Assembly: GCA_903873805.1 (NCBI GenBank)
Contig: CAIQQB010000132.1
Coordinates: forward strand, 1 to 64,000
Direction of reading: 5' to 3'
DNA from: an uncultured Opitutia bacterium
GTDB taxonomy: Bacteria; Verrucomicrobiota; Verrucomicrobiia; Opitutales; Opitutaceae
DNA: 64,000 bases
Part shown: piece after piece, positions 4,911 to 58,885 of the stretch
Position numbering within the stretch: the stretch's first letter is position 1
How the letters are laid out: each line of letters begins with the position of its first letter
Notes under the pieces: generated by a model
The model's input: only the letters and a program-made list of their open reading frames with translations
The model's database searches: none
What the model was told of the DNA's origin: nothing
Translations under genes and position numbers: made by a program

Positions 4911-5046
4911 ATCACGGACGACACAGATAACACGGATACGGTGCGTTGATAAATATCGATCTCGAAAATCTGTTCACTTGCCGGGTGAAGGCCAGAAAAC
5001 CTGCCATGGATTGATCATCCGTGTGCATCCGTGATATCCGTGGTTA
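4911..5046. repeat. Facing pair of ACACGGA word repeats (element A)
   Basis: Left arm 4911-4938 reads ATCACGGACGACACAGAT and onward; the right arm 5014-5046 reads, on the other strand, ATCACGGATGCACACGGAT. The arms are imperfect inverted copies separated by about 75 unrelated bases. Three more elements of the same plan are at 6199-6358, 36188-36333 and 58695-58885. Confidence 0.65.
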
Positions 5047-5107
5047 CAAGTGCGTTCTGTTGGGTGAGACGTTGGCTTGCTGTCATTCGCGACGGTTCGG
5101 ATGAAGC

Positions 5108-5165
5108 CGCGACGCCCTCGTCGCGGGGATGGCCGGTCGGAGAAAACGCGACGAGGGCGTCGCGT
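5108..5165. repeat. Facing pair of ACGCGACG hairpin repeats
   Basis: Left copy 5108-5125 (CGCGACG-CCCT-CGTCGCG) and right copy 5146-5165 (ACGCGACG-AGGG-CGTCGCGT) are each hairpins, and over 18 bases they are perfect inverted copies of each other. Further copies lie at 15851-15870, 30994-31013 and 46239-46258. Confidence 0.85.
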
Positions 5166-5200
5166 CCTCAGTTTGGCGGGCGCAGCAAGTCTTCCCCGCC

Positions 5201-6198: not shown

Positions 6199-6358
6199 GC
6201 CCACGGAATACACGGAACACACGGAAGGGGGAAGGCTGTTTTTGGGAGTAGGGACGGCCGGGGCAATTCACCAAAGCCCGACAATAAACTGATTGCCATT
6301 CGCGCACGAGGCGAAAGCTCCGTCTATATTTTCCGCGTGTTCCGTGGATTCCGTGGGC
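6199..6358. repeat. Facing pair of ACACGGA word repeats (element B)
   Basis: Left arm 6199-6226 and right arm 6331-6358 are inverted copies matching at 26 of 28 bases; both contain CCACGGAAT and CACGGAACAC. They enclose 104 unrelated bases. The element fills the gap between the aroQ start and the end of the NIF3 gene, and its right arm stops seven bases before the NIF3 stop codon. Confidence 0.85.
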
Positions 6359-9233: not shown

Positions 9234-12200
9234 TCAGCTTTTCAGGCGGTCGCGCAAGTACGGCGCGGTCGGGCTGCGTTTCACCCGGAGCAGGCCGGCG
9301 AGCGCCCCTTGGTAGAGCAGTTCGCCGCCGTCGGGACCGCCGACCGGTCCGAGTTCAACGATGTAGTCGGCCTCGGCGAGCAGGTCGAGATGGTGTTCGA
9401 TAACGACCACGGTATGCCCCTGGTCGACGAGCGAGTGCAGCACGCCGATGAGTTTCTCGCAGTCGCTGAGGTGGAGCCCGATAGTCGGCTCCTCGAGCAG
9501 GTAGAGGTTGCGCGGGAGGGTGCCGCGGCTGCGTTCGCGGTAGGTCGCGAGGCCGGAGGCGAGCTCGGTGACCAGCTTGAGCCGCTGGGCCTCGCCGCCG
9601 CTGAGGGTCGGGGAGCTCTGCCCGAGCGTGAGGTAGCCGAGCCCGCAGTCGACCATGAGCCGGCAGACCTGTGAGAGCTGCGAGTGGAAGTCAAAAAACG
9701 TCGCGGCCTCCTCGAAGGTGAGCTGGAGAACCTGGCCGATGGTCTTTTCCTTCCACATGATGTCGGCGAGATCGGGTCCGTAACGCAGGCCGTGGCAGTC
9801 GTCGCACGGCAGGTAGGTGTCGGGCATGAACGCCATCTCGAGCCGGATGCGGCCAGCCCCCTCGCAGGTGGGGCAACGGCCGCCCGCGGTGTTAAAGGAG
9901 AAGCGGGAGGCGGTGTAGCCGCGGAGCTTGGCGGCGGGCAGCGAGGCGAAGAACTGCCGGATCAGGTCAAAGATGCCCAGGTAGGTGGCGGGCGTGGAGC
10001 GGGGCGTTTTGCCGATGGGAGACTGGTCCACCTCGATGACCGATCGGAAGCCGTTGGCGCCGCGGAGCTCCGCAAACGGCAAGGACGAATGAGCAATCTC
10101 CGATGAGGATAGATCGGAGACGGCGAAGCAGGTGGATTTCACGAAGGCGCGGCCGGTGAGGCGGTTTTGGCGGGCCTTGATGGCGTGGGTGACCGCGGGA
10201 TCCAGCAGGTCGCGGAAGAGAGTGGATTTGCCCGCGCCGCTTGGGCCTGCGACCATGATCAGGCGGCCGAGCGGCAGGCGTAGATCGAAACCCTTGAGAT
10301 TGCGGAAGCACGCGCCGGTGAGCGTGAGCCAGTCCGGATTGGGGCGCTTGGATTTTGGATTGGGGACGGGCGGCAGGGGACGGTATTCGCCGCGAAGCGG
10401 GTGCTTGATGCCCTTGGCCAGAAACAGGCCGGTAAGCGAGCGGGCGTTGCGCCGGATTTCGGCCGGGGTGCCCTGGGCGAGCAGTTCGCCTCCGTGGATA
10501 CCGGCGGCGGGACCGAGGTCGATGATGCGGTCGGCCCGCGCCAGGAGGGTCTCGTCATGTTCGACGACGAGCAGCGTGTTGCCCTTGTCGCGGAGGGCCT
10601 CGAGCGTTTCGATCAACCGGTCGTTGTCGCGGGCGTGCAGGCCGATGCTCGGCTCGTCGAGCACGTAGAGCACGCCGGCGAGGTTGGTGCCGAGCTGCGC
10701 GGCGAGGCGGATGCGCTGGGCCTCGCCGCCGGAGAGCGTTTCGGTCGGACGGTCGAGCGCGAGATAGCCCAGGCCGACGTGGTCGAGGAATTTCAGCCGC
10801 TGCTCGATCTGGGGCACGAGATCCTGGGTGATGAGGAGGCCGCGGGCGTCGAGCTCGAGGGCGCGCAGCCGGGCCAGGAGGACGGCGGGGGTGGCGGCGA
10901 GGAGACCGGGGAGCGACAGCGGAGGCTGCCGGGCGCCGGTGCGGAAATGGAGTTTGACCGCGCAGGCGGTGCGATTGAGCCGGGCGCCGTGGCAGGCGGG
11001 GCAGGGCTGCCCGGTGCTCGCAATGTCGTCGGCCGAGTCGAGCCCGAGCTGCCGCAACCGGTCGAGGTTGGCGTCGCCCTCCTCCTCGTCCGGCACGAGC
11101 ATCCAGGGGAACACCCGTCCATGCCCGCGGCAGACGGGGCACCAGCCGCGGGGCGAGTTGAAGGAGAAATGCTTGGGGTCGAGCTCGGGGAAAGACTCGC
11201 CGGTTTCGATATCGGTGCGGGTCGTGGAGAACCACGAGAGAATGTCGCCGCGTTCGGTGAGGAGAAAACACGCTCCTTTGCCGAGGCGCAGGGCGGTGTT
11301 GAGGGCGTCGTCGCGAACTCGGCCATGGCGGCTGGCGGCTGGGGACGGGGCCTTTAGGTCGGTGACGACCACTTCGATGTCGTGCTCCTTGTACCGGTCG
11401 AGTTTCTGAAATGCGTCGGTCCGGGTGAGCCGGCCGTCGGCGCGAAGCAGTTCATAACCCTGGGCGGCGATCCAAGTGGCGATGGGCTGGTGGTGGCCCT
11501 TGCGGCCGCGGATGAGCGGGGCGCAGAGATGGAGATGCCGGGCCCGGCGCGCCTTCGGGGTCGCGAGAACGCGGGCCAGCAGCTGCTTCAGCGCGCCGGG
11601 CGAGAGGGGAGTGACCGGCCGGTCGGTCTCGGGGTGGTGCTGGACGCCGAGCCGGGCGTAGAGCAGGCGCAGGAACTGGGCGACCTCGGTGATGGTGGCG
11701 ACCGTCGATTTGCGGGAGCCGCGGGTGATGCGCTGCTCGATGGCGACGGTCGGCGGGATGCCGGTGAGCCGGTCCACGGCGGGGCGGGGCAGCTGCTCGA
11801 CGAACTGGCGGGCATACGGCGACATCGCCTCCATGAACCGCCGCTGGCCCTCGGCGAAGACGATGTCGAACGCGAGGGTGGATTTGCCCGAGCCGGAGAC
11901 GCCGGTGACGACGCTGAGCTGTCCGTGCGGAATGGCGAGGGAGAGGTTCTTGAGATTGTTCTCCCGGGCACCGGTAATCTCCAGCCCGTGGCTGGCCGGA
12001 CCCGTGAGATAGGGAGCAACTTCCTCGGCGGCCGCGAGGTCGGAAAGTTTGTCATCCAATGGGTGACTTATTTCCAGGGCGGTGCGGAGGAAGGGGGAGG
12101 TGGCGGTGTCGGCGAGTGCAACTGTTTCAGGCGGACCGGCGGCGACGATGCGGCCGCCCTCCGCGCCGGCGCCCGGGCCGACCTCGAGGATCCAGTCGGC

Positions 12201-15158
12201 CGACTTGAGAACGTCGAGGTTATGCTCAATGACGACTACGCTGTGACCGCGGTCGACCAGCGCCTGCAGGACGACGAGGAGGCGTTTTACATCGTGGCGG
12301 TGGAGGCCGGTGGTGGGCTCGTCCAGCAGGAGCAAGGCGCCGGGCTGGATTTTGGAATTTGGATTTTGGAATTTGGTTTGATCGGAAGCGGCGGTAAACT
12401 CGCCCAGATAACGGACCAGCTTGAGTCGCTGGGCTTCGCCGCCGCTGAGGGTGTTGAGCGGCTGGCCGAGCGTCAGGTAGCCCAGGCCAACGGCATCCAG
12501 GGAGCCGAGCCGCCGGTGAATTTCCGGGAGGTCTGCGAAAAGCGGCAGGGCGTCCGTCACGCTGGTCCCGAGCAGGTCGGCGACCGAGCGTTCCCGCCAG
12601 CGGATGGCGAGGACCTCCGGCTTGAAGCGGCGGGACTCGCAGACGGGGCAGGGCACAAACACGTCGGAGAGAAACTGCATCTCAACGCGTTCGTAGCCGA
12701 GGCCGAGGCAATGGTCGCACCGGCCCTCGCCGCTGTTGAACGAAAAGCTCGATGGGCTGAAGCCGGCGGCCCGGGCCTCGGGGGTGTCCGCATAGAGCTC
12801 GCGGATGAGCTCCCAGGCCTCGGTGTAGAGCGCGGGATTCGACCGCGGGGTGCGGGAGAGCGGCGACTGGTCGACCATAACGACCTCGGAAAAACCGGCG
12901 TCGCCCGAGACGGAGGCGATCTCGGCGGGATCGTCGGTGAGCTGGAGACGCCGGGTGAGCAACCCCTGGTAGATGACGTGGTCGAGCAGCGTGGATTTGC
13001 CGGAGCCCGAGACCCCCGACAGACAGACCAGACGGGCGAGTGGGAGACGGAAATCGAGATGGCGGACGTTGTGCTTGGTGCAGTTCGCGAAGGTGAGCCA
13101 GCGGGTGCCGTCCGGCTCAGGTGCGCCGACGGGTCGGCGGGCGGCGGGCGTGGGGATGGTCTCGCGGCCAGAGAAATACGCGCCGGTGATGCTGGCGGGT
13201 GAACTGAGTAACGCGGGAACGGGGCCCTGAAACACAATGTGTCCGCCCCGGCTCCCGGGTTCCGGACCGACCTCGATGACATGGTCGGCGGCACGGATCA
13301 TCGCCTCGTCGTGTTCGACCACGACCACGGTGTTGCCGGCATCCGTCAGGGTGCGGATGATGGCGATCAGCCGGTCGATGTCGCGCGGGTGCAGGCCGAC
13401 GCTGGGCTCGTCGAGGACGAAGAGCGTGTCGACCAGTGAGGTGCCGAGGCAGCCCGTGAGGTTGACGCGCTGAACCTCGCCGCCGGAGAGGGTCTTCGAT
13501 GGACGGTCAAGCGTGAGGTAGCCGAGGCCGACTTGGACGAGGTAGCGCAGGCGCGTGAGGATGGAGTCGTGGGCGAGCGACGCGCTGCGTGCGTCCTCAA
13601 GATGAGATTTGAAATCTGCGATTTGCGATTCGACAAGCAGCGAGAGGAGCTCGCTAACGGGCAGTTGGTAGAGTTCCGGCAGGGTGCGGCCGCGCCATTT
13701 CCAGCAGAGTGATTCGGGCTGGAGCCGCTGACCGCCGCAATCCGGACAGGGATTGTAGGAACGGTAGCGCGCAAGGAAGACCCGCACGTGCATCTTGTAG
13801 GTTTTCTTCTCCAGCCAGCGGAAGAATCCCTTCACGCCATACCAATACTGCGGCCAGACCTTGCCGCTCGCCTCGCCGTAGCCCGGCTCGCCATCGAGCA
13901 CGAAGGCGCGCTGTTCCGCCGTGAGAGAGGCAAAAGGAACCTCGGTCGGAATCTTCTTTTTCCGGGCCCAAACGAACAGGTCCTTCTTCGACTCGCCGTA
14001 GATTTCGCTCTCCCAGCATTTGATCGCACCCTCCTGCAGCGAAAGCGACTGGTCGGGGAGAGCGAGGCGGTCGTCGATCTCGATCACGCGGCCGAAGCCG
14101 CGGCATTTCGGGCAGGCGCCGAGCGGGGAGTTGAACGAAAACAGCGCGGGCGAGGCGGCGCGAAACGTGCGGCCGGTGGCGGGGGAGTGCAGGCCGCGGG
14201 AGAAATGGCCGGCGGGGATGAAATGCGGAGTGCGGAGCGCGGAGTGCGGAGTGGCGGGGTCGGACGGTGGCGAGCCCTCTCGCATGATGCCCATTTCTGA
14301 CGACTCGGCGGGATCAGAAGTGGAGACGGCAAACAGATGCACCTGACCCTGCCCGAAGTGGAGGGCGGTTTCGGTGGCCTCGAGAAAACGCGACCGGGCG
14401 GCGGGGGTGATTGCGAGGCGGTCCTGGATGACGTGGAGGAACGTCCAGCCTTCAACATCCAATGTCCAATGTCCAAGTTCGGAATCGGCGGGAGCCGCGA
14501 GGAGGTCGTCGATCTTGTGGACCGCAAAGGCTCCGGTGGACGTTGAAGGTTGGATGTTTGATGTTGAACGGGGCGCGGGCGCCAGCACGCGGACGTAGCC
14601 CTGGTTCTTGAGATTGGTGAGGATCTCGGTCCACGTCAGACTGGCCGGCCGGATGACGCGGAAACAGATGAGCAGCGTGCGGTCGGCGTGGGCGGCGGAG
14701 GTCTTGGCCCAGATGGTCTGCGGATTGTCATCCTCGACCTTGTCGCCGGTGGCCGGATCGTAGCATTCGGCGACATGGCTGAACCACACTTTGAAGAAGT
14801 CGGTCAGCTCGGTCATGGTCCCGACGGTCGAGCGGGAGTTTTTGACCGTGTTGGTCTGCTCGATGGCGATGGACGGGCGGATGTTTTCAATTGAATCGAC
14901 CTTCGGCTTGTCGAGCAGGTCGAGAAACTGGCGGGTGTAGGCGCTGAACGTCTCCACGTAGCGGCGCTGGCCCTCGGCGTGGAGGGTGTCGAAAACGAGC
15001 GAGGACTTGCCGGCGCCGCTCAGGCCGGTGACGACAATGTAGCGTCCGAGCGGCACATCGAGGTCGAAACCCTTGAGGTTGTTCTGCCGGACGCCGCGCA
15101 GGCGGATGCAGCGGAGGTCCGCTGCGGGCGAAGGTGAGGAAGGGGACGTTTTAGCCAC
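9234..15158 (-). CDS. uvrA: Double-length excinuclease ABC subunit A (tandem UvrA)
   Basis: Damage-recognition ATPase of nucleotide excision repair; about 1,974 residues against about 950 for a normal UvrA. Two complete UvrA units are fused, roughly 1-1040 and 1045-1974, giving four ABC ATPase modules. Walker [37 protein letters not shown]. Signatures: [32 protein letters not shown]. Each unit has CxxC zinc segments ([32 protein letters not shown]). The fourth Walker B reads [10 protein letters not shown] instead of LLDEP. The GTG at 15158 (VAKTSPSS) is chosen because the family core begins 16 codons later; the frame is open to 15467. Several short dispersed repeats are built into the frame (see repeat entries). 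The single-polypeptide tandem form is known from Chlamydiae and relatives. Confidence 0.93.
10336..10365. repeat. TTGGATTTTGG word repeat inside uvrA
   Basis: GGATTGGGGCGCTTGGATTTTGG and onward lies within the uvrA frame, encoding [12 protein letters not shown] on the minus strand just before the fourth ABC module. Related to the words at 12349-12376, 37901-37928 and 24767-24800. Confidence 0.5.
12349..12376. repeat. 28-base TTTGGAATTTGG repeat in the uvrA frame
   Basis: An AT-rich tract in otherwise GC-rich coding DNA. Its 28 bases are identical to 37901-37928 at the lgt start. It is translated as FQNPNSKIQ and lies between the signature motif and Walker B ([12 protein letters not shown]) of the second ABC module of uvrA. 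Ordinary UvrA proteins have only a few residues there, so it is an in-frame insertion. Confidence 0.85.
13601..13632. repeat. GATTTGAAATCTGCGATTTG word tract inside uvrA
   Basis: AT-rich, internally repetitive tract (ATTTG, AATCTGCG, ATTTGCGATT) in the uvrA frame, translated as [13 protein letters not shown] class it with the dispersed word repeats by composition and internal structure; no second copy is in the window. Confidence 0.45.
14223..14254. repeat. Tandem GCGGAGT(G) word repeat inside uvrA
   Basis: Four degenerate units of GCGGAGTG/GCGGAGCGC in tandem, translated on the minus strand as [10 protein letters not shown]. The tract lies before the zinc-finger segment [13 protein letters not shown] of the first UvrA unit. 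It keeps frame. Confidence 0.7.
14449..14569. repeat. Facing pair of TTCAACATCCAA word repeats inside uvrA
   Basis: Left arm 14449-14477 (CCTTCAACATCCAATGTCC and onward) and right arm 14542-14569 (on the other strand GTTCAACATCAAACATCCAA and onward) are inverted, related words enclosing about 64 bases of apparent uvrA sequence ([17 protein letters not shown]). Both arms are read through in frame. Confidence 0.65.
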
Positions 15159-15177
15159 GGACGGGCACGGATGCGCA
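15152..15177. repeat. CCACGGACGGGCACGG word at the uvrA start
   Basis: TTAGCCACGGACGGGCACGG and onward. The CAC at 15156-15158 is the complement of the GTG used as uvrA start. The word resembles the arms of the ACACGGA pairs, for example the arm ending 5046. No facing partner was found. Confidence 0.5.
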
Positions 15178-15259
15178 GGCGCGCGCGGAAGGCAAATGCG
15201 AAGACGCGGCGGCGGCAAGATTTGGCGGGGCCCGGCGCAGGTAGCCGGCACCCTGGCAG

Positions 15260-16405
15260 CTAAGCACGCTTGGTGAGCCGGGCGAAAAGATCGAGGTAGT
15301 GTTGCGCGTGGCCGTCCGGGGAGAAGGCGTTGTGTGCGAAGTCGCGGGCCGGGGCGGCGAGGGCGGCCCGCCGGCCGGGGTGGGCCAGGAGCGGGGCGAG
15401 GGCGGCTAGAAAGGCGGCATCGTCTCCGGGGGCGATGGCCCAGCCGGTTTCGCCGGGCCGGAAGCATTCGCGGACACCGCCGACCGCAAAGGCGACGACT
15501 GGGAGACCGTGCGCCTGGGCCTCGATGAGAAAGTTGGGCAGCGACTCGGATTGGGAAGTGAGCACGGCGACATCGGCGGCGCGGTAGAGCGGGGCGGGGT
15601 CGGATTGGAAACCGAGAAATTTCACGCGGTCGGCGAGGCCGAGCTGCCGGGCGAGCGCGGTGCAGGCCGGGCGGGTTTCACCCTCGCCGACGAGCCAGAG
15701 CTGCCAGTCGGCGTCGCGCGGCAGGAGGGTCGCGAGGGAGATGAGAGCGCGCTGGTTTTTCTCCGGTCGGAACATGGCGACGCAGAGCAGAACGGTGGTC
15801 GAGGGCGTGGCGGCGTGGGTGGCGCGGAGGGTTTCGCGGGAGTATTCGGAACGCGACGGGGGCGTCGCGTCCCCAATGCGGGGTGGGGGAACCCCACCTA
15901 CATCGGAAGCGGAATCGGAAGGGAAAACGAGGGAGTTGTGGATGACGGAGATCTTTGCGGCGGGGATCGCATAGTTGTCCGCAAGCACGCGCGCGGCCTC
16001 GTGGCTGTTGGCGACGATGTGGCGGACGTTGAGCAGCGAACGGCGGAAAAGAGCAGGCAGCTTCTTGCCCGTCCGCATGGTGCCGATTACGGCGGTCGCG
16101 GGCAGTATCCGCTGGAGTCCGCCCGCGCGACAGTTCGCCATGCGCCCCATGCAGATAATGATGTCGGGGTGGAAACGGGTGGCAAAGCGCGCCAGCCCCG
16201 GGGCAAACCAGTCCAGGCGGGTGTCGAACGGCTGGAGGCTCCGGCGGGCGACGGGGGCGGCCACGGTGCCGGCGAGTGGACCGCTTGGGCGGAAGGTCAA
16301 CAGCGTCACCGCGTGCCCGGCGCCGGCGAAGGCGTTGGCGAGCAGCACTGACTGGCGTTCGGTGCCACCGCTGCGGAGATAGTCTTGGAGGACGAGGATT
16401 TTCAT
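15260..16405 (-). CDS. Glycosyltransferase family 4 (GT-B fold)
   Basis: A 381-residue GT4-type enzyme transferring a sugar from an NDP donor, probably in surface polysaccharide synthesis. Start MKILVLQDYLRSGGTERQS at 16405 has the family glycine-rich acceptor loop. The C-terminal donor domain shows FRPEKNQRALI and the E-x7-E type segment ESLPNFLIEAQAHGLPVVA. Between the two domains, around residues 170-185, the chain contains GVPPPRIGDATPPSRSE. This is encoded by two dispersed hairpin repeats (15851-15902) that are read in frame. Donor and acceptor cannot be told. It is a lone gene following the divergent holin-like gene. Confidence 0.88.
   Translation of the reverse strand: MKILVLQDYLRSGGTERQSVLLANAFAGAGHAVTLLTFRPSGPLAGTVAAPVARRSLQPFDTRLDWFAPGLARFATRFHPDIIICMGRMANCRAGGLQRILPATAVIGTMRTGKKLPALFRRSLLNVRHIVANSHEAARVLADNYAIPAAKISVIHNSLVFPSDSASDVGGVPPPRIGDATPPSRSEYSRETLRATHAATPSTTVLLCVAMFRPEKNQRALISLATLLPRDADWQLWLVGEGETRPACTALARQLGLADRVKFLGFQSDPAPLYRAADVAVLTSQSESLPNFLIEAQAHGLPVVAFAVGGVRECFRPGETGWAIAPGDDAAFLAALAPLLAHPGRRAALAAPARDFAHNAFSPDGHAQHYLDLFARLTKRA
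15851..15902. repeat. ACGCGACG hairpin plus TGTAG hairpin inside a glycosyltransferase gene
   Basis: 15851-15870 is ACGCGACG-GGGG-CGTCGCGT, a perfect 8-bp stem. 15878-15902, on the minus strand, is TGTAGGTGGGGTTCCCCCAC and onward. Both families recur elsewhere in intergenic DNA, at 46239-46258 and 46316-46340 in the same order and spacing class. Here they are part of a reading frame. Confidence 0.85.
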
Positions 16406-29581: not shown

Positions 29582-30916
29582 CTAGAGCTGCTTCACAAGC
29601 ACCTTCGGATTGCGGCCGCTCTCCTCGTAGAGCTTGAGCCGGGCTTCGGGCAGCATGGACTTGTCCGCCTCCTCGTAGCCGAGCTTCGAGGTGAAGAACG
29701 CGTAGCTCTGGGTGGAGAGGGCGACGACGGTGGACGCGCCGCGTTCCTTGGCCATCATGCTGGCAAACTCGACCATCTTCCGGCCGATGCCGCGGCCCTG
29801 GAAAACGGGCATGACGTAGAGCGAGCCGATCTCAGCGAGCTGCGGCTTGTCGGGATAGAAGTAGAGCGTGACGCACGCGATGATGTTCTCGTCGATCTCG
29901 AAGACGTAGAACTGGTCGATGTTCTTTTCGATCGCCTGCTGGGTGCGGTGGATCAGCTCCTCGCGCTTCACCGCGCTGCGGGTGAGCTGGTGGAGGAAAC
30001 GCACGTCACGTTTGGTCGCCTTGCGGATCTGCTGGTAATCGTTCGCGTAGATCAGCGAGCCGATGCCGTCGTTGGAGAAGATCTCGTTGAGCAGGCCGTC
30101 GAAGACCCGGCCGTCCACCAAATGCACGCGCGGCACGCCGGTCTCAATCGCGCGGACCGCGTGGAGTGCCTTGCTGCGGACGTTATCGGCGAGGCTGGCG
30201 GGCGCGTCCTTCAGCAGGGCCCGGAGGGCGTCGACGGAGATGTCGCGGCGAATCTCGCCGTCGATCTCGAGTCCGGCGGCGGGCGTGAGGAAGATGATCT
30301 TCGAGGCGGCGAGGGCCTCGGCAACCTCGGCGGCAAGCAGGTCGGAGTTGACCCGCAGCGAACGGCCGTCGGGACCGTAACCGATAGGCTGGAGGATGGG
30401 GAGGATGTCGGCGCCGATGAGGTGGAGCAGAAACTCCTTGTCCACGCGGTCGACCTTGCCGGTGTGCTGCTGATCCACGCCCTTGAGAATGCCGACGGGG
30501 AGCGCACGCACGGCATTGGTGATGGCGCATTTCAGGGAGTTCTGAGTGAGACCCTCGAGAATGAGGTGGGAAACCCGGGCGGAGGCGCGGATGGCGAGGT
30601 CGAGTGTGGCGGCGTCGGTCACGCCGGCCCCGTCGCTGTTGGTGATGGGAATGTTCCGGAGTTCGGAAAGTTCGTCCAGCTGCTGGCCGATACCGTGGAC
30701 CAGGACGACCCGGATGCCGAGGCTGCGGAGCACGGCGATGTCGACCAGCAGATTGCTGAAATTCTCGTCGGCGACGATCGAACCGTCGAGCGCGAGCACG
30801 AAGATCTGGTCCTGAAACCGGGGGACGTATTTCAGGATGCCGCGCAGATCGGTGGGCTTGATCGTGGCGGTGGCGGCCGGCTGGGCCGGCTTGTCGGAAC
30901 CTTGGCCGTTGCTCAT
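29582..30916 (-). CDS. argA: N-acetylglutamate synthase (amino-acid N-acetyltransferase)
   Basis: First step of arginine synthesis. The 444 residues form the two-domain ArgA architecture. An amino-acid-kinase-like domain comes first (about 25-290; VVLVHGIGQQLDELSELR, GADILPILQPIGYGPDG), which binds the inhibitor arginine in relatives. A C-terminal GNAT acetyltransferase domain follows (about 300-440; EIGSLYVMPVFQGRGIGRKM, the acetyl-CoA loop). It is transcribed with nadK. No other arg genes are in the window. Confidence 0.95.
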   Translation of the reverse strand: MSNGQGSDKPAQPAATATIKPTDLRGILKYVPRFQDQIFVLALDGSIVADENFSNLLVDIAVLRSLGIRVVLVHGIGQQLDELSELRNIPITNSDGAGVTDAATLDLAIRASARVSHLILEGLTQNSLKCAITNAVRALPVGILKGVDQQHTGKVDRVDKEFLLHLIGADILPILQPIGYGPDGRSLRVNSDLLAAEVAEALAASKIIFLTPAAGLEIDGEIRRDISVDALRALLKDAPASLADNVRSKALHAVRAIETGVPRVHLVDGRVFDGLLNEIFSNDGIGSLIYANDYQQIRKATKRDVRFLHQLTRSAVKREELIHRTQQAIEKNIDQFYVFEIDENIIACVTLYFYPDKPQLAEIGSLYVMPVFQGRGIGRKMVEFASMMAKERGASTVVALSTQSYAFFTSKLGYEEADKSMLPEARLKLYEESGRNPKVLVKQL

Positions 30917-36115: not shown

Positions 36116-36187
36116 GCGGACAAGGCGACGGCCGGGCGAGAGTACGAAACACACCAACGACACGAAAGTGATTACCCCTCAATCTTA

Positions 36188-36333
36188 CCCGCGAATCACG
36201 CTAAGGACCGCGACGCGGAAGCCAGGCAATCCAGACCGGTCGGAGGCATTGGCGGGTCTGAAGTTTGATTGGCCGCTAGATGGATCCGTTTTGGGCTTGC
36301 ATCCCATTCGCGCCATTCGCGTGATTCGCGGGC
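36188..36333. repeat. Facing pair of CGCGAATCACG word repeats (element C)
   Basis: Left 36188-36201 (CCCGCGAATCACGC) and right 36320-36333 are perfect inverted 14-mers, with weaker similarity extending about 10 bases inward. A related word ACACACCAACGACACGAAAG lies just before, at 36148-36167. The element fills the pxpBC-pxpA gap. Confidence 0.75.
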
Positions 36334-36361
36334 AATGTTTCTGGCCGGATTTGACCTGCCA

Positions 36362-40810: not shown

Positions 40811-40949
40811 TACTGAGGCTCGCAGATTGGCCTGACGTGGCTGGTGCCTCACTTCCCGCCGCGCCCGCGGCGGGCTGCATCGGAAATGTAGCCCTGCGCG
40901 TGAGCGCAGGGAGTTTGGTTTTCGTCAGGCTGACGTGCGAGCCTCAGTA
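40811..40949. repeat. Nested repeat: 14-bp inverted arms around a TGTAG hairpin
   Basis: Outer arms 40811-40824 (TACTGAGGCTCGCA) and 40936-40949 are perfect inverted copies. Inside lies the TGTAG hairpin 40887-40911: TGTAG, then CCCTGCGC-GTGA-GCGCAGGG. Further inner similarity: GCCTGACGT on both sides. The right arm contains the stop codon of the convergent DUF1080 gene. Confidence 0.85.
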
Positions 40950-57560: not shown

Positions 57561-57610
57561 CGTAGGTCGGGCTTCACGCCTGACGTGTCGGGGATAAACC
57601 CCGACCTACA
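57561..57610. repeat. Facing pair of TGTAG-type hairpins upstream of menB
   Basis: Left 57561-57584: CGTAG, then GTCGGGC-TTCA-CGCCTGAC. Right 57586-57610, minus strand: TGTAG, then GTCGGGG-TTTAT-CCCCGAC. The two hairpins face each other one base apart, and the outer 10-mers are perfect inverted copies. Confidence 0.85.
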
Positions 57611-58520: not shown

Positions 58521-58582
58521 GCGGGTGCCGGAGTGATCGGTCCGGACAATCTCGCGCGGGTTCGAATCAAACCCAGCAGTGT

Positions 58583-58609
58583 TGAAGCAGGAAGCCAGGA
58601 AGCCCGGAA
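58583..58609. repeat. GAAGCAGGAAGCCAGGAAGC word repeat
   Basis: Three imperfect AGGAAGC units in tandem. I know similar AGGAAGCCAGGAAG words from other genomes of this kind; no second copy in the window. Confidence 0.5.
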
Positions 58610-58630
58610 ATAGCGGTCCTTTTCTCTCAA

Positions 58631-58694: not shown

Positions 58695-58885
58695 AACCAC
58701 GGAGACACAGAGTTCACTGAGGACGATCCGAAGTTGCAGCGGCATCCTGCTCATGGATGCCCGCCCAATCCGTCGAACGAGGACGAAAGAGAAAGATAAA
58801 GAGGAATGAGAAAGATTTAACCCTCTTTCCCCTGTGCTCTGACAGCTGCCCTTTCTGACTCTGTGACCTCTGTGTCTCCGTGGTT
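58695..58885. repeat. Facing pair of CCACGGAGACACAG word repeats (element D)
   Basis: Left 58695-58712 (AACCACGGAGACACAGAG) and right 58868-58885 are perfect inverted 18-mers. The match extends inward to about 27 bases with two mismatches. They enclose about 155 bases rich in GAAAGA/AAAGAT. Confidence 0.9.

Follow-up and report, generated by a model that had tools for sequence, protein, structure and literature searches.

The described system whose anatomy is closest to that of the elements analysed here is the intervening sequence (IVS) of 23S rRNA. The IVS of Coxiella burnetii is 428 nt long, ends in a 28-bp terminal stem, contains an S23p ORF adjoined by tandem heptamers (GACAGAT), and is removed by RNase III (PMC4990558). 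A second comparable system is formed by REPINs and RAYT genes, in which inverted extragenic doublets with a variable spacer occur together with singlet relics, and related repeats flank the gene thought to move them (PMC3116915, PMC3733652).

These systems are compared here with four pairs of facing arrays, designated E1 to E4, located in the window, i.e. the whole 64,000-nucleotide stretch that was analysed from an uncultured Opitutia bacterium. Degenerate heptamer arrays of similar appearance occur in cyanobacteria, as STRR arrays and heptamer-repeat stems. These arrays and stems are not known to frame genes of the GxxExxY or S23p families.

Facing arrays in the window

A sequence-only reading of the window had proposed that E1 to E4 share one plan: a word array, a stretch of unrelated bases, and the same word inverted. 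For E2, E3 and E4 this plan was borne out by arm alignment, and E1 was found to be weaker. The features are as follows.

E1, 4911-5046, no strand assigned: member of a MITE-like multi-copy family, with CACGGAT arrays (gapless arm core 14/16)
E2 left arm, 6199-6226, plus strand: three CACGGA words with a period of 9
E2 loop, 6227-6330, no strand assigned: 104 nt, without a gene
E2 right arm, 6331-6358, minus strand: 26/28 match to the left arm
E3 left arm, 36185-36204, plus strand: word CGCGAATCACG
E3 right arm, 36316-36335, minus strand: 18/20 match to the left arm (core 14/14), the array extending inward as far as 36303
E4 left arm, 58695-58721, plus strand: words CACGGAGACACAGAG
E4 loop, 58722-58858, no strand assigned: 137 nt, without a gene
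E4 right arm, 58859-58885, minus strand: 25/27 match to the left arm (core 18/18)

All four sites are extragenic gaps between protein genes (in order, PgpA/NusG-like, AroQ/NIF3, carboxyltransferase/LamB_YcsF and enoyl-CoA hydratase/PFK), and none lies in an rRNA gene; an Rfam search of the window returned two tRNAs only and no rRNA match. The arms of E2 to E4 are tandem words without self-complementarity, and no tagged palindromic REP halves are present. Their termini are complementary, so that a long stem is possible, and the same holds for the gene-bearing forms described below. RNA folding gave z-scores of -6.6 for E2 and -7.6 for E4. The loops of 104-137 nt and the lack of a T-run after the stem agree with the earlier statement that the pairs are not ordinary terminators, and the lack of an Rfam match with the statement that no named family is known for them. 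No GxxExxY or four-helix-bundle ORF was found in E1 to E4 or anywhere else in the window. In the host genome, E2 used as a query matched elsewhere in its arms only, and no second copy of its body was found.

Several other repeats were noted in the window. A lone GGAAGCC-type array without a partner (58575-58610) lies directly upstream of E4; this type of word also frames a GxxExxY gene (L279) elsewhere in the host genome. A 27-nt inverted repeat (40811-40949; 85%, 85 nt between arms) contains no tandem word, and intergenic palindromic REP-like pairs are located at 5102-5170 and 57562-57609. Facing AACATCC/GTCCAAT-type arrays with arms of 34 nt (74%) are present at 14442-14570 inside the UvrA gene (9237-15467, minus strand); the pair is in frame within this gene and would therefore be translated.

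Frequency of facing pairs in the window and host genome

The expectation that facing pairs are commoner than random was confirmed at two scales. In the window, four inverted pairs with a score of at least 15 and a spacing of 50-250 b were detected, compared to a mean of 0.05 (maximum 1) in dinucleotide shuffles. These are E2, E3, E4 and the wordless repeat at 40811-40949, with E1 falling under the cut. In the host genome assembly (3.78 Mb, 195 contigs), which its relatives mark as probably Opitutaceae-like, the pattern CACGGAN{0,4}ACACGGA occurs 39 times and the reversed pattern not once; a looser form of the array pattern is present in 241 of the 252 genomes of the family. Twenty-one host CACGGA arrays were chosen blind to any partner, and a partner was accepted at a match of at least 16/24. 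An inward-facing partner was found for 14 of the 21 arrays, and a same-strand or outward-facing partner for none, which shows that the facing pairs are real. This blind-anchor test was preferred to comparing arm identity within an element and with the nearest other element, a measure biased toward the partner because the elements had been selected by their arm match.

In 620 kb of the host genome, 30 inverted pairs scored at least 16, compared to 1 in shuffles. Many of their arms are degenerate tandem arrays of very different words, (i) of 9-10 nt (CACGGA, CACGAA, CGCTAATC) or (ii) of 6-8 nt (GTAGCGA, TCGTTCTC, AACATTC, GGATTTT). GTAG-tagged REP pairs, common in other parts of the genome, make up a palindromic group of their own. 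The number of CACGGA array matches differs between species of one genus, with 141 in G046 vs. 7 in G021; G046 carries no PF05635 gene.

E1 as a member of a MITE family

The MITE family to which E1 belongs is based on a CACGGA-type word. The family has 21 matches in the host genome, of which ∼19 are long, with a conserved loop, and the body of E1 shares 72-89% identity with most of ∼18 other genomic places. The CACGGAT arrays sit within longer terminal inverted repeats, which run ∼25 nt past the arms and have CCTA-type ends. The 5-nt flanks of 13 copies agree at 3.92 of 5 positions, compared to 2.89 in shuffles (p = 0.0005); the agreement is inexact, and flank duplications of 5 nt are probable. 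E1 could not be traced to a parent IS. It has the terminal inverted repeats, conserved body, high copy number and probable flank duplication of a MITE; E2 differs in that no second copy of its body was found.

The earlier proposal that arms differ between elements stands as far as the words are concerned, but it fails for E1 with its family of similar bodies, and within one word class it is softened, since an arm resembles the nearest other element almost as closely as its own partner.

Given these properties of E1, known transposases of the same genome might move all the facing pairs, which would then be ordinary MITEs or REPINs. E1 itself fits such an origin, the host genome contains inverted GTAG-tagged REP pairs, and O. 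terrae is reported to be rich in GTAG repeats (PMC3733652). Overall, we regard this explanation as quite unlikely: the loop of E2 has no second copy in the genome, and the facing arms are tandem words of 7-10 nt with no REP palindromes. The nature of the framed gene tells against it for the class in general, as this gene encodes GxxExxY or S23p and not a RAYT tyrosine transposase.

Genes framed by facing arrays

The genes found between facing arrays belong to two families, PF13366/TIGR04256 (GxxExxY) and PF05635/TIGR02436 (S23p/IVP, four-helix-bundle proteins). Facing arrays surround all four PF05635 genes of the first sequence sample. In the next set of four-helix-bundle genes, about two-thirds of the loci scored at least 14, compared to 9 of 400 random positions, and nearly every gene had its own word of 7-8 nt. 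In Verrucomicrobiota as a whole, 17 of 28 four-helix-bundle loci reached this score. GxxExxY genes, whose reading frames may often begin in words of the 9-10 nt type, were examined next, and 23 of 30 loci had a score of at least 15 (random positions, 4/1000). A cross-phylum set was drawn from named genomes of Anaerolineae, Acidobacteria, Planctomycetes, Bacteroidetes, Proteobacteria, methanogenic archaea and others; here 61 of 80 GxxExxY loci scored at least 14, and none of 400 shuffled flanks did.

In the pooled, non-redundant data, facing arrays with a score of at least 14 flank 96 of 127 genes in the GxxExxY family and 53 of 87 in the four-helix-bundle family, scorable arms being absent at about a quarter and 40% of the loci, respectively. 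The median distances from the inner array edges to the gene are 34 and 21 nt for GxxExxY and 72 and 46 nt for the four-helix bundle, and the median length of a gene-bearing element is 466-467 bp.

GxxExxY proteins are placed by family assignment in the PD-(D/E)XK nuclease superfamily, and the catalytic-type D and E-x-K residues are conserved. A search of the PDB by sequence returned no solved relative. The fold model has a pLDDT of 67, and Foldseek gave no hit below E = 0.1, several of the top hits being PD-(D/E)XK nucleases. As this model is weak, nuclease activity is predicted for the family from its Pfam assignment. The four-helix-bundle proteins match a solved Xanthomonas protein (2gsc). 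PADLOC returned no hit and therefore provided no evidence of a defence role.

The gene-bearing elements share several features with the 23S rRNA IVS. The lengths are similar (428 nt for the IVS, a median of 466 for facing-array elements), both have complementary ends (∼28 nt in the IVS), and the combination of an S23p four-helix-bundle ORF in the loop with tandem heptamers recurs in the elements with 7-nt words. However, the IVS is located in an rRNA gene and the facing-array elements in gaps between protein genes, where their words vary from element to element. Moreover, the CACGGA-type gene-bearing elements hold the unrelated GxxExxY gene, and many copies are gene-less; E1 to E4 likewise differ from the IVS in having no S23p/IVP ORF in the loop. 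In the literature outside subscription journals, we found nothing on arrays at GxxExxY genes or at S23p genes other than those in rRNA.

The word follows the encoded protein

The period of the word was found to depend on the framed gene: it is 8-10 nt in 46 of 48 GxxExxY elements (e.g., CACGGAG, CACGAAT, CGCAAAG) and 7 nt in 36 of 46 four-helix-bundle elements (p = 4e-13). Similarity of words is also correlated with similarity of proteins when only pairs below 70% identity are considered (Mantel r = 0.54 and 0.32, p = 5e-4). Within GxxExxY, proteins of the LGPG type carry C.C..AG words in 64 of 76 cases and those of the xGxG type carry C.C..AT words in 9 of 10. The correlation between word and protein is partly due to inheritance, since some pairs share their site by descent; the difference in period between two unrelated gene families is not. 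As the word class depends on the gene family of the element, matching arms need no special correction.

The arms of E1, E3 and E4 and the left arm of E2 match GxxExxY arms above shuffles and in the same outer-to-inner sense, while the right arm of E2 ties with shuffles. Of the two kinds of gene-bearing element, the GxxExxY kind supplies the best matches to the arms of E1 to E4. The best gene-bearing match to the left arm of E3 is L285, a GxxExxY element located in the host genome itself; that to the left arm of E4 is an Anaerolineales GxxExxY element (L317; score 22, compared to at most 12 in shuffles). No intact GxxExxY gene bearing the exact word of E2 was found in the host assembly. E1 to E4 have the facing 8-10 nt C.C-type arrays of the proposed GxxExxY class without the gene between them, and because the gene is missing they were classified as non-autonomous or relic.

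The same data bear on a rival reading, in which the pairs are RNA hairpins that have been domesticated as stabilisers of mRNA, as processing sites or as insulators. The arms would then stay matched because their pairing in RNA is selected, and the small genes would simply happen to lie in such gaps. The very stable folds of E2 and E4 are in keeping with this, as is the removal of the Coxiella IVS by RNase III (PMC4990558). GxxExxY genes are, in addition, co-oriented with 68 of 92 upstream and 66 of 86 downstream neighbours, as raw counts. The hairpin explanation nevertheless accounts neither for a word whose period and sequence follow the protein, nor for the location of the arms within tens of bases of the gene, nor for the large variation in presence between species described below. 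We therefore consider it unlikely.

Turnover at orthologous gaps

The gaps corresponding to two sites were compared among relatives. The aroQ/NIF3 gap, which holds E2 in the window, contains other words, REPs or single arrays in relatives, or is empty. A CACGGA element shared within one genus (G113, G114, G117) is in the course of decay, and several species of genus g16 have hardly anything in this gap. In the latter genus most species also have an empty gap between xseB and the M48-peptidase gene. The inserts found in this gap are a CACGGA element (G184/G178), a AACGAAGGG element (G181) and a REP (G187), each sitting between 10-20 nt target copies. The gene-bearing elements showed no clear target-site duplication (11% and 12%, compared to 6% and 5% in shuffles). 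As duplication was not found in general, the idea of insertion at specific sites, each time with a fixed target duplication, was rejected.

A closer comparison was possible between G002 and G110, which are ∼94-98% identical over the aligned parts. In one element the loop and right arm are letter-identical and the left arm is a different word; no outgroup for this replacement was found in G111 or G112. The absence of an element in G002 resembles a deletion between 7-nt direct repeats. At other sites both arms differ jointly with their content, be it a gene or a loop, and at one exchanged site a four-helix-bundle protein lies between the arms in both species, protein and word being different. 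Such joint differences would fit replacement of the whole element or independent insertion. The orthologous gaps thus show that arms may be replaced singly and that elements may also come, go or be swapped for others as whole units. In G002, an ATTTTCG array (C1:140880-141689; L136, 16880-17689) is located beside an inserted gene pair that is VapBC-like by its translation and absent in G110, which suggests that arrays are able to border other cargo.

The sequence-only reading had suggested joint copying or correction of the two arms. This interpretation is partly supported: the two arms of an element do belong together, words varying between elements and, at one and the same gap, between species, but a process of copying or correction is not supported in the form proposed, the left arm alone having been exchanged between G002 and G110. 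A mutational origin, in which a polymerase switches template in the hairpin and corrects one arm by the other, was the first idea considered. Some sites have indels common to both arms (e.g., G002 alignment position 30551 vs. G110), as this mechanism would produce. The left arm mentioned above was, however, swapped for a word that mismatches the intact right arm, and correction cannot yield word classes that track a protein. Template switching is accordingly rejected as a sufficient cause, and a mutational origin of the pairs is in general highly improbable.

Proposed explanation

Beside the observed anatomy, statistics, phyletic spread, dependence of word on protein and turnover at orthologous gaps, we set the following proposal. 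E2, E3 and E4 are probably gene-less members of a group of short selfish elements, here termed facing-array elements, and E1 represents a MITE family that arose on the same word. A complete element would comprise, in ∼466 bp, an array of 7-10 nt words, a small ORF, and the array inverted, the ORF being GxxExxY where the words are of 8-10 nt and a four-helix-bundle S23p/IVP gene where they are of 7 nt. Judging from the covariation of word and protein, the encoded protein may read its own array as the end of the element, and the same protein may move or copy it. Gene-less pairs could then be non-autonomous copies served by a related protein, or relics still present after their own protein was lost. 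The arms would pair in RNA or single-stranded DNA, and the insert might fold out of the transcript as the IVS does from 23S rRNA. According to this proposal, the arms match because both ends are read by one protein and because they pair with each other.

More tentatively, and with somewhat more doubt than confidence on our part, the elements may form a widespread mobile class of bacteria and archaea, in which GxxExxY proteins and, independently, S23p/IVP proteins read their own word as the element end. Each protein lineage would evolve a new word and leave many gene-less pairs behind in a genome, and the 23S rRNA IVS would be the special case located in an rRNA gene.

The facing arrays provide a shared genomic context, and a testable function, for GxxExxY and S23p/IVP, two very common protein families with no assigned role. 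The covariation of word and protein makes the recognition code testable by sequence alone. If the proposal is true, it would account for a class of abundant word repeats shared by unrelated phyla, and the intervening sequences of 23S rRNA would fall within a much larger class of elements.
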